IMG/VR virus record: IMGVR_UViG_3300042861_000488
Coordinates: 1-25,281 of that record
DNA length: 25,281 bases
DNA from: a virus
Direction: 5' to 3' (one strand)
Shown: piece after piece, positions 4,814 through 17,334 of the stretch
Numbering within the stretch: position 1 is the first letter of the stretch
Layout: the number at the start of each line of letters is the position of its first letter
Made by a program: the position numbers and the translations under genes
Notes under the pieces: generated by a model
Seen by the model: the letters and a program-made list of their open reading frames with translations, nothing else
Told to the model about the DNA's origin: nothing
Database searches by the model: none

Positions 4814-5316
4814 AAAAAACGTATCAACCCAAACCCGCCAAGGTTGAAAAGTTGAAAACGTACATGGAGGCGATTAAAGGCAATACAAGCATCAAGTGCG
4901 AACTATTTGTCAAGACGATAAAGATAATCGCCCTAATGGTCTTATTTCAATCGTGTGGGGCAGAATACCACCTAAAACAAGCGTGTAAAAAGAAACCAAG
5001 CCTTTGCGAACAGAAAGTGAAGATAGATACATTCATTGTACACGATTCAATTTACTTTTATGATACGTTTACGACCAAAGAGATTGACACTATCACCATT
5101 GACACGGGTTCTATTAGGGTTAAGGTTGTTAGGCATTACAATAAAATCAAGGTCCTAATTAAACAAAAACCCGATACCATTCGCATAACCAAAACCATAA
5201 CCCTACCACCCAAGTACGTTGAAAAAGAAAAAGTTGTGTGGGGCAATGCCCATTGGGTGTTTTTTGGCATAGGGTTATTATTGGCATTAATAGGAATGTA
5301 TAAGGTAACTAAATAG
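4798..5316 (+). CDS. Unimolecular-spanin-like lipoprotein
   Basis: Up to 172 residues. From an internal ATG at 4864 (residue 23) the protein has a basic N-region, a hydrophobic stretch (IKIIALMVLF) and a Bacteroidota-style lipobox ending LFQSC (Cys53 from the first ATG), then a periplasmic part rich in Asp, Thr and Lys, and a C-terminal membrane segment WVFFGIGLLLALIGMY. A lipoprotein signal at the N end and one transmembrane helix at the C end is the architecture of u-spanins, which link and fuse inner and outer membranes at the last step of lysis. It lies outside the main lysis cassette (7397-8504). The first ATG overlaps the upstream gene by 16 nt; the start at 4864 gives a more normal signal peptide. 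The function is inferred from topology only. Confidence 0.6.
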   Translation: MESNVKKTYQPKPAKVEKLKTYMEAIKGNTSIKCELFVKTIKIIALMVLFQSCGAEYHLKQACKKKPSLCEQKVKIDTFIVHDSIYFYDTFTTKEIDTITIDTGSIRVKVVRHYNKIKVLIKQKPDTIRITKTITLPPKYVEKEKVVWGNAHWVFFGIGLLLALIGMYKVTK

Positions 5317-5346
5317 AACAATTAGTTTAAAAAGCGTTTTATAGAT

Positions 5347-5508
5347 ATGACAAAAGCGTGGGTTACACCATCACGAAGTTCGCCAAAGCCTGGGGGGAAT
5401 AGAGCTTGTCTATGTAAGAATGGCAAGTATTCCCGTAAGTGTTGCGATGGTAGTTTACAAGCACAAGGTGTGGGCAATGTTACAGGGGTACAAGTTCAAC
5501 AAAATTAA
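5347..5508 (+). CDS. SEC-C-like zinc-knuckle mini-protein
   Basis: 53-residue ORF. Its centre (ACLCKNGKYSRKCCDG, residues 21-36) resembles the SEC-C metal-binding motif (CxC, a Gly-Lys-Tyr turn, then CC) found at the C end of SecA and in many small proteins. A basic, Pro/Ser-rich N-terminal half and a Gly/Val/Gln-rich tail flank it. It sits between the spanin-like gene and the tail genes with normal spacing. The zinc-binding call follows from the four cysteines; the biological role is unknown. Confidence 0.6.
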   Translation: MTKAWVTPSRSSPKPGGNRACLCKNGKYSRKCCDGSLQAQGVGNVTGVQVQQN

Positions 5509-5519
5509 ATATTAAAAAT

Positions 5520-9074: not shown

Positions 9075-9293
9075 ATGTTGCCAATAGAATTTTTAATACT
9101 ATATCCTATGAGCATCCCAGTAGCATTTTTATTGCACAAGTTGTGGGCGAAGTTGACAAGAAAAAGAGTGGTAGATATGCCCGAGGCTAAACCATATCAA
9201 TTTGAATATGATAAGCCCATTAAGAGTTTTAATCAAGTTACAAAACATTGGAAACAAGAAACAAAACGCATGTACAGAGGAGGGCAATTATGA
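9075..9293 (+). CDS. Small membrane-anchored protein ending MYRGGQL
   Basis: 72 residues from ATG 9075; a TTG at 9051 would overlap the preceding stop. One N-terminal hydrophobic segment (FLILYPMSIPVAFLLHKLW) is followed by a basic cytoplasmic tail. The last seven residues, MYRGGQL, are identical to the C-terminus of the next gene. The DNA coding for them (AGAGGAGGGCAATTATGA) also provides the Shine-Dalgarno site for the following ATG, so the conserved end is partly a translation signal. Confidence 0.55.
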   Translation: MLPIEFLILYPMSIPVAFLLHKLWAKLTRKRVVDMPEAKPYQFEYDKPIKSFNQVTKHWKQETKRMYRGGQL

Positions 9294-9919
9294 CAAACGA
9301 AACAAAACAAATAAATAATTATTGGGTAATTGGCTCAAATAAATGGAATGCGTCCATTTACACACAAGAGCAAGCCGAGAAGTATTCAAAAACTTTAATT
9401 AATTGCCAAAACTGTATCAATTGCCGTTCTTGCAGTTCTTGTCGTTCTTGTCGTTCTTGCAGTGATTGCCATTGTTGCAGTGATTGCAGTGATTGCCGTT
9501 CTTGCAGTTCTTGTCGTTCTTGCAGTGATTGCCATTGTTGCAGTGATTGCAGTGATTGCCGTTCTTGCAGTTATTGCCGTTGTTGCAGTGATTGCAGTGA
9601 TTGCAGTGATTGCAGTGATTGCAGTTCTTGCAGTTATTGCAGTTCTTGCAGTTATTGCCGTTCTTGTCGTTCTTGCAGTGATTGCAGTGATTTTAAAACA
9701 AATCCACAACGCATCACATCCTCATTTTTAGGTAGCAGAAATTCACAAACAACTTATTATTGGGATGATAAACGCGAACAAATTATCTGCGGTTGTTTTA
9801 AAGGCACTTTAGAAGAATTTGAGGAACAAGTCAAAATAACTCACGGAGATAATGACTTTTCAAAAGGATATTTTAAATGGATTGAATTAGTTAAAATGTA
9901 CAGAGGGGGGCAGTTATGA
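9290..9919 (+). CDS. Cysteine-triplet repeat protein
   Basis: 209 residues from the ATG at 9290, chosen because it has a strong SD (AGAGGAGGGC) and an ATGA overlap. Residues 1-38 are an N-terminal cap (NNYWVIGSNKWNASIYT). Residues 39-134 are 32 perfect Cys-X-X triplets, mostly CSD, CRS, CSS, CSY and CHC. The rest is a compact domain with YYWDDKREQIICGCFKGTLEEF and a THGDNDFSKGYFKW motif. I know this C-terminal domain type from Bacteroidota phage proteins that carry other regular repeats in front of it (Gly-Asn-Ala beta-helix repeats). The repeat could form a triplet helix with stacked cysteines, bind metal, or form disulfides. No function is known. Confidence 0.7.
   Translation: MTNETKQINNYWVIGSNKWNASIYTQEQAEKYSKTLINCQNCINCRSCSSCRSCRSCSDCHCCSDCSDCRSCSSCRSCSDCHCCSDCSDCRSCSYCRCCSDCSDCSDCSDCSSCSYCSSCSYCRSCRSCSDCSDFKTNPQRITSSFLGSRNSQTTYYWDDKREQIICGCFKGTLEEFEEQVKITHGDNDFSKGYFKWIELVKMYRGGQL
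9404..9691 (+). repeat. 9-bp tandem repeat, 32 units (Cys-X-X codons)
   Basis: 288 bp of 9-bp units, typically TTGCAGTGA or TTGCCGTTC/TTGTCGTTC. A higher-order period of 63 bp (seven units: CRS CSD CHC CSD CSD CRS CSS/CSY) occurs twice in succession, which shows growth by segmental duplication. Because the unit is a multiple of three, copy changes keep the frame. Confidence 0.9.
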
Positions 9920-12369: not shown

Positions 12370-12465
12370 TGTTAACTGGATTGTAAGAGAATCCGATAGT
12401 TAAAAAGATTATTGCCCGTTGGGTTTACGTGTGCTCTTACCACCGTGAATCTGATGGGCTTTTTT
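12370..12465 (+). ncRNA. Structured small RNA copy 1 with kissing-loop hairpins
   Basis: About 96 nt from predicted start to T-run. Hairpin 1: TTAACT (12372-12377) plus GGATT (12378-12382), loop GTAAGAG (12383-12389), AATCC (12390-12394), a 3-nt bulge GAT, then AGTTAA (12398-12403). Hairpin 2: 16 consecutive pairs between 12414-12429 and 12444-12459 (several G-U), a further GTG/CAC, loop CTCTTAC (12434-12440), then six T's (12460-12465). The two loops are exact reverse complements over all 7 nt, so they can kiss. It lies 13 nt before the replication initiator ATG. It resembles the RNA at 21520-21611 in layout and in conserved boxes (GTTAA..GATT..TTGCCCGTT). Confidence 0.8.
12414..12465 (+). 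terminator. Terminator hairpin (hairpin 2) of small RNA copy 1
   Basis: 16-bp stem with a short upper stem and a TTTTTT tail. It stands between the promoter at 12337 and the initiator gene, so transcription of that gene from this promoter requires read-through. Confidence 0.85.
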
Positions 12466-12478
12466 ATTTAACAAAAAA

Positions 12479-13159
12479 ATGCAAAACACGGGACAAATTA
12501 TCAGGAGTAAAAAAACTGCAAAAGATCGGTACACGCCAATTAGTAATGATATATTACAAAGCAACGAATTAACACCAGAGGAAAAGGCAATTTTAATTTA
12601 CTTATTATCATTACCAAGTGATTGGGTAATATTAAAAAAGCAATTAATTGAATGGGCAAATTTCGGTAGAGATAGATTTAATAAGGCTTGGAAATCCTTG
12701 CATGAAAAAGGATATTTATTATCTATTCGTATATTCAATCAAACCACTGGACAATTTGTTGGATGGAATCATATTGTTTATGAAATACCAGTTTTAGAAG
12801 ATAACCGAGATACTGAAAATCCGAAAGTCGGTGAAACCGAAAGTCGGGAAATCCGACAGTCGGAAAATCAGTACATATATAAAGTAATAAATGAACAAAG
12901 TAATAATAGTACAAAAGAAATAGAGAGTGTACGTACACGCACACACACACAATTTGTTCCTCCGACTTTGGAAGAAATACGGTTGCAGTTCCGCGAGTTG
13001 GATGCAGAGCGATTTTTCAACTATTATGAATCCAATGGATGGATGGTTGGTAAAAACAAAATGAAGAATTGGAAAGCAGCGGCGGCGAATTGGATAAATA
13101 AAGATAAAGCCAATAATAATTTTGTAAGTAGAAATATAGCAACTTTGAACGATGATTGA
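12479..13159 (+). CDS. Replication initiator / helicase-loader-like protein
   Basis: 226 residues. Residues about 1-110 look like a winged-helix DNA-binding domain (LTPEEKAILIYLLSLPSDWV, KKQLIEWANFGRDRFNKAW, EKGYLLSIRIF). Residues about 110-160 form a charged linker. The C-terminal 60 residues (FVPPTLEEIRLQFRELDAER, then KMKNWKAAAANWINK) resemble the C-terminal module of phage replication and DnaD-like proteins. It overlaps the DnaB-type helicase gene by 8 nt, the classical initiator-helicase pairing. The linker-coding DNA contains four 16-bp iterons, as lambda O carries its origin. Expression is probably governed by the small RNA unit directly upstream. Confidence 0.75.
   Translation: MQNTGQIIRSKKTAKDRYTPISNDILQSNELTPEEKAILIYLLSLPSDWVILKKQLIEWANFGRDRFNKAWKSLHEKGYLLSIRIFNQTTGQFVGWNHIVYEIPVLEDNRDTENPKVGETESREIRQSENQYIYKVINEQSNNSTKEIESVRTRTHTQFVPPTLEEIRLQFRELDAERFFNYYESNGWMVGKNKMKNWKAAAANWINKDKANNNFVSRNIATLNDD
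12805..12868 (+). repeat. Four 16-bp iterons inside the initiator gene
   Basis: Units start at 12805, 12821, 12837 and 12853: CCGAGATACTGAAAAT, CCGAAAGTCGGTGAAA, CCGAAAGTCGGGAAAT and CCGACAGTCGGAAAAT. The last three share CCGAmAGTCGG, itself a near-palindrome (CCGAC/GTCGG). A 16-bp period is not a multiple of three, so the repeat is conserved as DNA, not as protein. Confidence 0.85.
12805..12925. other. Candidate phage replication origin
   Basis: Iterons (12805-12868) are followed by a strongly AT-rich stretch (about 12871-12925, with ATATATAAAGTAATAAATG), the order of binding sites then unwinding element seen in lambda-type origins within the O gene. The host gene encodes a winged-helix initiator-like protein next to a helicase. 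Confidence 0.6.
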
Positions 13160-14360
13160 AACCAATATACTGGCTTGTTTTTTAATGAGCGACTACGCAA
13201 AGACATTTTTACCACGGGTTAAAACACAATGGTTCACGGGGTGGCATCAAGGATTGGTTAAAACTATGCAAGATATGTACAACCAGAATCAACCTATTGG
13301 ATTGCATACATTATATAGTTATTATCCCGATCGTGCCTATGATATGGCTAAAATTACCAATGGGTTTATGACTGATATTACCATTGAAAAGGAAATAATC
13401 CTCCTTGAAATGCAGTTTAACAAAAACTATTTGTTGGAAGAGATTACAAAAGTTCGTACTGATTGGGATTTAAAGGAGATACAAAACCATTTGGAAAATA
13501 TCAATTTTAATAGCCGTATTCAAACCCGTAACGATATACAGAAAATGTCAACGGTTATGGGTAAAAAGGTAGATGAAATTGAACAACGTATTAAAACGGG
13601 CAACCACATGAAAGGTTTAAACACTGGATGGTTAAGTTTGGACAAATACATTGGCGGTTGGAATAAAGGAAACTTGGTAATTGTGGGAGGTCGCCCAGGG
13701 ATGGGTAAATCTGCATTAGGTTTAAACTTCTGTATTGATGGTAGTAAGTACGCTAAATATGTATTTGTTTCGATTGAAATGAGTTCGGACGAATTAGCCG
13801 AAAGGGTGATTGCAGATATTAGCGGGATTGAAAATTATAAGATACGAAATGCAAAATTATCAATCGAGCAATTGCAAAATATTGCATCAGAAATTTATAA
13901 CCAAAGTGATTTTCATTTGATTGATACCAAAGATAACAACGTATATAACATAATTTCGCTTTTAAAGGTGCATAGAGCGAAGTTTGGGGTGGATGTGGTA
14001 GTAATTGACTACTTACAGAAATTGGATGCGGGAGGAAAGGATTTAAGAACAAATGTAGGTTTAGCATCCACGGCATTAAAAAACTTTGCAAGAGAGTTAG
14101 GAATTACCGTTATTGCGTTGGCACAATTAAATCGTGATGGGAAAAATTCACGACCAGAACTAACCGAATTGAAAGAAAGCGGACAAATAGAACAGGATGC
14201 GGATGTGGTATTATTTCCATTCCGTCCATCGTATTACGAGGAAATCAAACCAGAAGTTGAAGATTCAGTCGTTATAATTGCAAAGAATAGGCACGGAAGA
14301 TTGTGCGATATCCCTTGTAAATTTTACGGAGGATTAACCCGATATAAAGAAAACATTTAA
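13152..14360 (+). CDS. dnaB: Replicative DNA helicase (DnaB-type)
   Basis: 402 residues. A short N-terminal domain (about 1-110) is followed by a RecA-type hexameric helicase core. Walker A is GRPGMGKS (180-187), the Walker B region is DVVVIDYLQ (281-289), and motifs include VFVSIEMSSDELAERV (H1a region), VIALAQLNRDG and ESGQIEQDADVVLFPFRP. These are the hallmarks of DnaB family helicases that unwind DNA at the phage replication fork and recruit primase. No primase domain is fused. It is translationally coupled to the initiator gene and somewhat shorter than cellular DnaB, as usual in phages. Confidence 0.93.
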   Translation: MIETNILACFLMSDYAKTFLPRVKTQWFTGWHQGLVKTMQDMYNQNQPIGLHTLYSYYPDRAYDMAKITNGFMTDITIEKEIILLEMQFNKNYLLEEITKVRTDWDLKEIQNHLENINFNSRIQTRNDIQKMSTVMGKKVDEIEQRIKTGNHMKGLNTGWLSLDKYIGGWNKGNLVIVGGRPGMGKSALGLNFCIDGSKYAKYVFVSIEMSSDELAERVIADISGIENYKIRNAKLSIEQLQNIASEIYNQSDFHLIDTKDNNVYNIISLLKVHRAKFGVDVVVIDYLQKLDAGGKDLRTNVGLASTALKNFARELGITVIALAQLNRDGKNSRPELTELKESGQIEQDADVVLFPFRPSYYEEIKPEVEDSVVIIAKNRHGRLCDIPCKFYGGLTRYKENI

Positions 14361-16730: not shown

Positions 16731-16756
16731 CCAATGTAAAAAGGTGCTAACATTGG
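16731..16756 (+). promoter_or_regulatory. Inverted repeat enclosing the sigma-gene start
   Basis: CCAATG (16731-16736) and CATTGG (16751-16756) are exact inverted repeats with 14 nt between, enclosing AAAAAGG and the GTG start at 16744. In RNA this is a hairpin with the ribosome site and start codon in the loop; in DNA it is an operator-like palindrome. Confidence 0.4.
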
Positions 16757-17334
16757 AACACATAGCCCAACACGATGTCAAATGGAGAAAGATGGCAAAT
16801 TATCTTGGTGCGAGGTATGGGGATATTGACGATGTTGTGCAAACGATGTACCTTAAAGTAGCAGAAATTCAAACACGAGATGGCAATTTAAATCGGATTG
16901 AATCCCCAAATGGTGGTGTGAATACCTTTTACATTTTTAAAATCATTCAATCCGAGGTTATAAATTTATATCGGGCGGAAAGTAAAACCATAGACCACGA
17001 ACCACAATTTAACCCCATTGATTTACCCGAGGAAACCGAATACAAGTATCAAGCATTGATGGGGAAGATTAAACAAGTGATTGACACCATGCACGAATAC
17101 GACCAAATGATTTTGGAATTGTATTTTGTTTATGGGCATAGCCTACGCCAAATAGAGAAACGCACAGGTATTACGGTTACATCGGTTTACAATACCCTTA
17201 AAAACGCAAAACAACACATTAAAAATCATTCAATAGAGTTATACAATGAATACATTGAACAGAAAGCAGAAACGGAAACCATCGCAAGGTTTGGGCGATA
17301 CGATAGAGAAAATCACGACATCGACTGGGATTAA
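16744..17334 (+). CDS. Phage RNA polymerase sigma factor (ECF-like)
   Basis: 196 residues. Region 2-like helix GDIDDVVQTMYLKVAEI (about 27-42), with further helices binding core and the -10 region; region 4 HTH GHSLRQIEKRTGITVTSVYN (about 130-150) followed by LKNAKQHIKNH. No region 1 or 3, so ECF-type size. Such phage sigma factors redirect host RNA polymerase to later genes. The best start is GTG 16744 (TTG 16753 is possible), because the only nearby in-frame ATG is followed directly by a stop. The C-terminal 89 nt overlap the next gene in another frame. Confidence 0.8.
   Translation: MLTLEHIAQHDVKWRKMANYLGARYGDIDDVVQTMYLKVAEIQTRDGNLNRIESPNGGVNTFYIFKIIQSEVINLYRAESKTIDHEPQFNPIDLPEETEYKYQALMGKIKQVIDTMHEYDQMILELYFVYGHSLRQIEKRTGITVTSVYNTLKNAKQHIKNHSIELYNEYIEQKAETETIARFGRYDRENHDIDWD

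Follow-up and report, generated by a model that had tools for sequence, protein, structure and literature searches.

A candidate replication origin, with phased iterons and an AT-rich element, inside the initiator gene of a phage probably infecting Bacteroidota

The window, that is, the whole 25,281-nucleotide stretch of DNA analyzed here, is an IMG/VR virus record and may represent a fragment of a genome. Its terminase is 54% identical to terminases of Flavobacterium phages, which suggests a probable Bacteroidota host. The locus under study consists of a replication initiator gene and a DnaB-type helicase gene that overlaps it by 8 bp, in agreement with the original prediction of an adjoining DnaB helicase. 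The following features were delineated:

12479-13159, plus strand: replication initiator gene, 226 amino acids (HTH_36, PHROG and tblastn matches)
12479-12799, plus strand: winged-helix DNA-binding domain, residues 1-107 (AlphaFold2, fold alignment)
12803-12818, plus strand: degenerate first iteron, unit AACCGAGATACTGAAA, core CCGAGATACTG
12812-12943, plus strand: predicted disordered linker, residues 112-155 (pLDDT <50), encoded by the putative origin DNA
12819-12834, plus strand: iteron 1, unit ATCCGAAAGTCGGTGA, core CCGAAAGTCGG at 12821-12831
12835-12850, plus strand: iteron 2, unit AACCGAAAGTCGGGAA, core CCGAAAGTCGG at 12837-12847
12851-12866, plus strand: iteron 3, unit ATCCGACAGTCGGAAA, core CCGACAGTCGG at 12853-12863
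12867-12882, plus strand: trailing half-site-like unit ATCAGTACATATATAA, half-like part ATCAGTACATA
12876-12925, plus strand: AT-rich element, putative unwinding element, 18% GC, TRF period 16
12947-13126, plus strand: C-terminal domain, residues 157-216 (pLDDT >90 in the full model), an exchangeable module
13152-14360, plus strand: DnaB-type replicative helicase gene (PF03796, DnaB_C, E=2.8e-62; phrog_19, E=2.1e-73)

Elsewhere in the window, an open reading frame at 9248-9919 encodes a Cys/Ser-rich repeat protein (CRSCSDC...), the repeats being coded by a 9-bp/63-bp tandem array at 9420-9692, and a Sigma-70 region-4-like protein (PF08281, E=7.7e-9) encoded at 16744-17334 is perhaps a phage transcription regulator.

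The product of the initiator gene matched replication initiation and DnaD-like helicase loader families among the PHROGs (best E=9.6e-13), and its match to HTH_36 (PF13730, E=3.8e-5) fell just below the curated cut-off (score 23.8 versus 25 bits). Searches with tblastn retrieved TP901-1 REP (E=2e-6), the record of which carries an 'experimental' mark, as well as phiC2 DnaD, the LL-H dnaA analog, GBSV1 and others, and an iterated HMM search grouped the protein with TP901-1, GBSV1 and phiC2. The sequence search of the PDB yielded no match for the initiator protein, and the PDB profile search returned only general MarR/SarA-type and other winged helices. The N-terminal domain was mostly modeled with confidence by AlphaFold2 (mean pLDDT 87-96 for residues 21-100). 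Its fold matches in VIA-align included primosomal DnaB (5wtn, Z 10.0), DnaD (2v79, Z 7.9), the RepA_N-type structures 4pql (Z 8.3) and 4pt7 (Z 7.8), and the N-domain of PLE RepA (4ro3, Z 8.2), all values that exceed the usual winged-helix background only moderately. The initiator homology and the modeled winged helix bear out the earlier assignment of the gene to a winged-helix, initiator-like protein. The disordered residues 112-155 are encoded by DNA that includes most of the iterons along with the AT tract; the C-terminal domain alone had no fold match in the PDB.

Direct reading of the initiator gene revealed three exact CCGA[A/C]AGTCGG dyads, at 12821, 12837 and 12853. The core at 12805 is a degenerate yet conserved fourth copy in the same 16-bp phase, identical in the relatives L001-L003 and similar (CCGANNTACTG) in L082, L085, L086 and L104. 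Thus, of the four 16-bp iterons originally predicted, three stand as exact copies, whereas the first is degenerate and not the equal of the others. The spacing is exactly 16 bp, as had been proposed, with units starting at 12803, 12819, 12835 and 12851; the repeat search gave spacings of 16 and 16, and TRF detected two arrays of period 16, one at 12817-12869 and the other at 12881-12915. The near-palindromic core, CCGAmAGTCGG, was likewise correctly described: CCGANNNTCGG occurs exactly at only three sites in the 25-kb window, all of them within the array, and none of 2000 dinucleotide shuffles of the initiator gene contained even two exact occurrences. When two mismatches were allowed, the seven matches in the window, against a mean of 3.8, were not unusual; the iteron signal lies in exactness and phasing, not in the total number of near-matches. 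Because a period of 16 is not divisible by 3, successive copies fall in three codon frames and are read as ENPKVG, ETESRE and IRQSEN, consistent with the claim that they are out of phase with the codons.

The TACTGA of the first unit is mirrored by TCAGTA in the trailing unit, and the two pair in the predicted DNA fold, so that the array at 12803-12882 overall approximates an inverted repeat. The array folds strongly as DNA (z -5.2), as expected of inverted repeats, and this fold is not counted as a separate function; Rfam gave no match in the array region. In the leader of the gene, AATCCGATAGTTAA at 12393-12403 resembles the iteron half CCGANAGT and is found as CCGAAAGTT in L001 despite diverged surroundings; it is a possible autoregulatory site.

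The predicted AT-rich DNA follows the iterons at 12876-12925, starting 14 nt past the last dyad, with 18% GC by direct count versus ~34% locally. The tract has a pattern of its own, TACTAAATACTAAT / TACAAAAGACTAAT, with units placed 16 bp apart (TATAAAGTAATA at 12878, AACAAAGTAATA at 12894 and TACAAAAGAAA at 12910). GC skew displayed no switch at 12.8 kb and is uninformative as an origin test, because all larger genes lie on one strand.

The initiator gene is shared with L001, L002 and L003. In comparison with L003, the closest divergent relative, synonymous changes affect 30 of 83 codons in the N-domain versus 4 of 39 in the linker (Fisher p=0.0025); in comparison with L001, the corresponding numbers are 26 of 99 and 0 of 37. 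The C-domain of L003 is unrelated to that of the window and DNA identity stops just past the AT tract, indicating that the N-domain, iterons and AT tract form one block, whereas the C-domain has been exchanged; unrelated domains replace it in relatives. A protein-independent pattern scan of viral contigs, with two phased cores as the query, recovered six contigs: L001-L003, L082, L085 and L086. The N-domains of L085 and L086 are closely related to that of the window, that of L082 is distant and its sequence GC-rich, and all three have their iterons, like the window, in the linker of the homologous gene. Conservation of the iterons in relatives, a check suggested by the original prediction, is thus seen both in the near-frozen synonymous sites of the linker and in the identical placement of the array. 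These alignments indicate that what is conserved in the iterons and the AT element is the DNA and not the protein. Downstream of the L086 initiator gene, at ~4965-5516 on the minus strand, the end of an open reading frame resembles DnaA domain IV by eye.

We surveyed linker periodicity in 46 non-redundant relatives of the N-domain. An autocorrelation score of 12 (periods 12-20) was reached by 34 of the 46 initiators and by none of 89 control open reading frames from the same loci, which, together with the shuffle test, rules out a chance repeat. Among the relatives scoring >=14, only periods of 15, 16 and 18 were found. When codons were shuffled among synonymous positions only, with protein and codon usage fixed, the periodicity was significant in 41 of 53 genes at p<=0.05 (31 at p<=0.01) and in these genes therefore goes beyond protein sequence and codon usage; it was non-significant in the other 12, including TP901-1 (p=0.15). 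Phage and plasmid relatives from several phyla carry linker iterons of 15-16 bp, and a similar layout, of varying strength, is present in plasmids of Staphylococcus, Exiguobacterium, Brevibacillus, Bacillus, Caldicellulosiruptor and Deinococcus, the Deinococcus gene being the only one of these with non-significant periodicity. Four short initiators of one clade (L111, L114, L116 and L118; open frames of 181-207 codons) seem to have no C-terminal domain after the origin linker. The annotated initiator of L096 (Streptococcus phage Javan37, 2510-3330) ends before the linker, and the gene is probably broken or frameshifted, because iteron-like ACTGAAAATCC repeats sit just past the annotated stop.

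Three classes of iterons were matched by three types of recognition helix. Helices of the GRDRFNxAW type are associated with CCGA-3-TCGG iterons, IWxxMNxGRDRFNxxW helices with CTGA-3-TCAG iterons (except in L115, which has GRGRF and CCGA-3), and helices of the KGTID type with CCGA-2-TCGG iterons. CTGA, the main half-site of the second class, may be compared with the outer TACTGA/TCAGTA of the window array. Mapped onto the N-domain tree, iteron class shows 4 changes, against a mean of 12.5 after shuffling; for the rows in which the C-domain is classified, there are 3 changes in iteron class and 7 in C-domain family. These counts point to linkage, with the iterons following the N-domain and not the C-domain. 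Because the groups are largely clades, the match between iteron and helix represents linkage and not a proven code, and since joint changes of class and helix are few on the tree, independent evidence for a recognition code is limited.

In most relatives the last dyad is followed by TACTAAATACTAAT, TACAAAAGACTAAT or TATAAAGTAATA. Of the 37 genes scored, 27 have an AT element that starts 11-14 nt past the last dyad, and the element is not tied to one codon frame, all three being represented. The script mis-anchored at least two outliers, L003 and L161, for which direct reading gives a distance of 14 nt. With the reservation that the counts are inflated by related clades, TACTAA is present in 16 of the 32 genes from viral contigs, where the codon-order null has a mean of 5.6 and a maximum of 13, and in 12 of the 21 from named phages, plasmids and genomes belonging to other phyla, where the null gives 4.1 and at most 11; the lambda-O-derived motif ACAAAAGAC is present in 9 of 32 (nulls 0.1-0.2) and 1 of 21, respectively. 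In most of the nine lambda-O-family phages examined, a ACACAAAAGACA-like element stands directly past the last iteron, in two codon frames, and the iterons differ among phages. Taken by itself, the match to lambda is weak: scores at least as high came from 8 of 300 shuffles and 1 of 1940 genome windows.

The likeness of the AT element to the B. subtilis oriC element 5'-CTACTATTACTTCTACTA-3', which DnaD binds as a single strand via TnnT pairs and of which DnaA binds the other strand (PMC10201434), is suggestive only. We tentatively raise the possibility, which we rate as somewhat doubtful, that otherwise dissimilar phages and plasmids, with embedded origins belonging to HTH_36-type initiators of several phyla or to lambda-O-type ones, have in common an AT-rich unwinding element close to TACTAAATACTAAT / TACAAAAGACTAAT, located at a near-fixed distance from freely diverging iterons and read as a single strand by a common feature of helicase loading. 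On mobile elements, it would then correspond to the DnaA-trio / DnaD recognition element of chromosomes. The enrichment of the motifs over the codon-order and dinucleotide nulls and their independence of frame speak for this proposal, but the likeness might instead have arisen by convergence, through simple AT-richness and linkers rich in A. The shared element may be the new part of this analysis, as we found no description of it in the literature on iterons, initiators and HTH_36 that we covered, which takes in few of the subscription papers. If true, it would bear on which sequence information, besides AT-richness, unwinding elements carry.

Given the initiator homology, the DNA-level conservation of the array, its identical placement in relatives and the experimental precedents, we consider it highly probable that 12803-12925 is the replication origin of the phage, or its principal one, situated inside its own initiator gene. 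Under a different explanation, the repeats would have no function as DNA and would just reflect a protein linker that is repetitive or of low complexity, and they do sit in a predicted disordered linker, where drift and repeats are tolerated. However, the 16-bp period shifts the frame, so that each copy encodes a different peptide; synonymous change is almost absent across the repeats; synonymous-codon shuffles abolish the periodicity in most genes; and distant relatives retain the spacing with other dyads and other amino acids. We therefore find this explanation barely credible, and a protein-repeat by-product was rejected on the linker synonymous constraint and the synonymous-codon shuffles.

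The remaining alternatives grant the iterons a function as DNA and place initiation elsewhere. Transcriptional regulation through binding to dyads is common among winged-helix proteins, as is autoregulation among initiators, and a weak half-site-like CCGATAGT lies in the leader near 12396; the iterons might accordingly be an operator, bound by the initiator or another regulator. This is very unlikely, considering that the array lies ~325 bp into the gene and is followed at a near-fixed distance by a patterned AT-rich element, which is the layout of an origin, and that the related systems are demonstrated origins. The array could also be one of several initiator-binding loci that serves incompatibility, fork arrest or a concatemer switch and not the main initiation, as the window may hold only part of the genome and the SPP1 initiator gp38 is bound at two distant sites, oriL and oriR (PMC6316719). 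Yet no further exact site is present in the 25 kb, and the AT-rich element expected of an initiating origin is in place, so that such a role appears unlikely.

If 12803-12925 is an active origin, as we infer, initiation might proceed as follows. The winged-helix N-domains would, in all likelihood, bind the CCGA-N3-TCGG dyads on neighboring turns set by the 16-bp spacing, probably as one dimer per dyad. The resulting nucleoprotein complex would plausibly strain and open the AT-rich element, and the C-domain, tethered by the origin-encoded disordered linker, could conceivably bring the phage DnaB helicase and the host primase to the open strand, leading to theta replication. Helicase recruitment is the weakest of these steps, because only 5 of the 45 loci scored have DnaB as a neighbor and the C-domain matches no recognized fold. 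A group of phages probably infecting Bacteroidota thereby gains a precise candidate origin and initiator, and the relatives, with their matched iteron and helix classes, constitute a natural experiment in DNA recognition in which C-domains are swapped while the N-domain and origin stay together.

The location of an origin inside the initiator gene is already known from lambda O, TP901-1 Rep, SPP1 gp38 and pSK41/pPR9 Rep. In lambda O, as in the window, the iterons lie directly past the N-domain (annotated codons 117-145) and precede an AT-rich element, which in lambda contains ACAAAAGA repeats (lambda ori element ACAAAAGACACTATTACAAAAG), and the proposed resemblance to the logic of the lambda origin holds in this respect. 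The accompanying statement that there is no sequence similarity to lambda is upheld for the iterons and probably fails for the AT tract, because ACAAAAGAC-type repeats follow the last iteron in the lambda-O family and are enriched at the same place in the family of the window protein. The lambda iterons are longer and differently spaced, and lambda has P, whereas the window has its own DnaB; an adjacent P-type helicase loader is absent, the next gene being that of the helicase. Pfam gave no match to lambda O (PF04492) in the window protein and only E=0.049 in its relative L003, the hhalign probability was 7%, and the similarity between the two N-domains was not significant. By the tests run, the window system would work like the lambda origin without its initiator being a lambda O protein.

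In SPP1, which encodes a DnaB-type helicase, oriL in gene 38 combines initiator-binding repeats and an unwinding element within the initiator gene (PMC6316719), a layout that, as described, is similar to that of the window. The N-domain of pSK41 Rep binds four Rep boxes within rep and the origin-encoded linker is dispensable, and in pPR9 a PF13730 N-domain was swapped in together with the origin (PMC5703833). These systems share with the window a winged-helix N-domain, Rep boxes inside rep, an origin-encoded linker and an exchangeable C-domain. They differ in being plasmids, and the pSK41 N-domain is of the RepA_N type, which the window protein matches by fold only (Z about 8), with no Pfam match to RepA_N (PF06970).

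TP901-1 Rep and its relatives (GBSV1, phiC2, LL-H and TPELB_ph1) have an N-domain homologous to that of the window, followed by 15/16-bp linker repeats, with the lowest score in TP901-1 and a position far down the linker in LL-H, and by an AT-rich stretch, which in TP901-1 and GBSV1 contains the TACTAA element. The linker repeats of TP901-1 are reportedly required for replication. This group differs from the window in its Bacillota hosts and other repeat sequences, and TP901-1, GBSV1 and phiC2 have a DnaD-type C-domain (PF07261) that the window lacks. Judging from protein homology, TP901-1-type Rep and the PF13730-type Rep of pPR9, the latter by way of the N-domain type described for it, appear to be the nearest known systems, closer than lambda O. 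The window has the features of this type of initiator, with a homologous, HTH_36-like N-domain, DNA-constrained phased repeats in the linker and an AT-rich segment directly after them.
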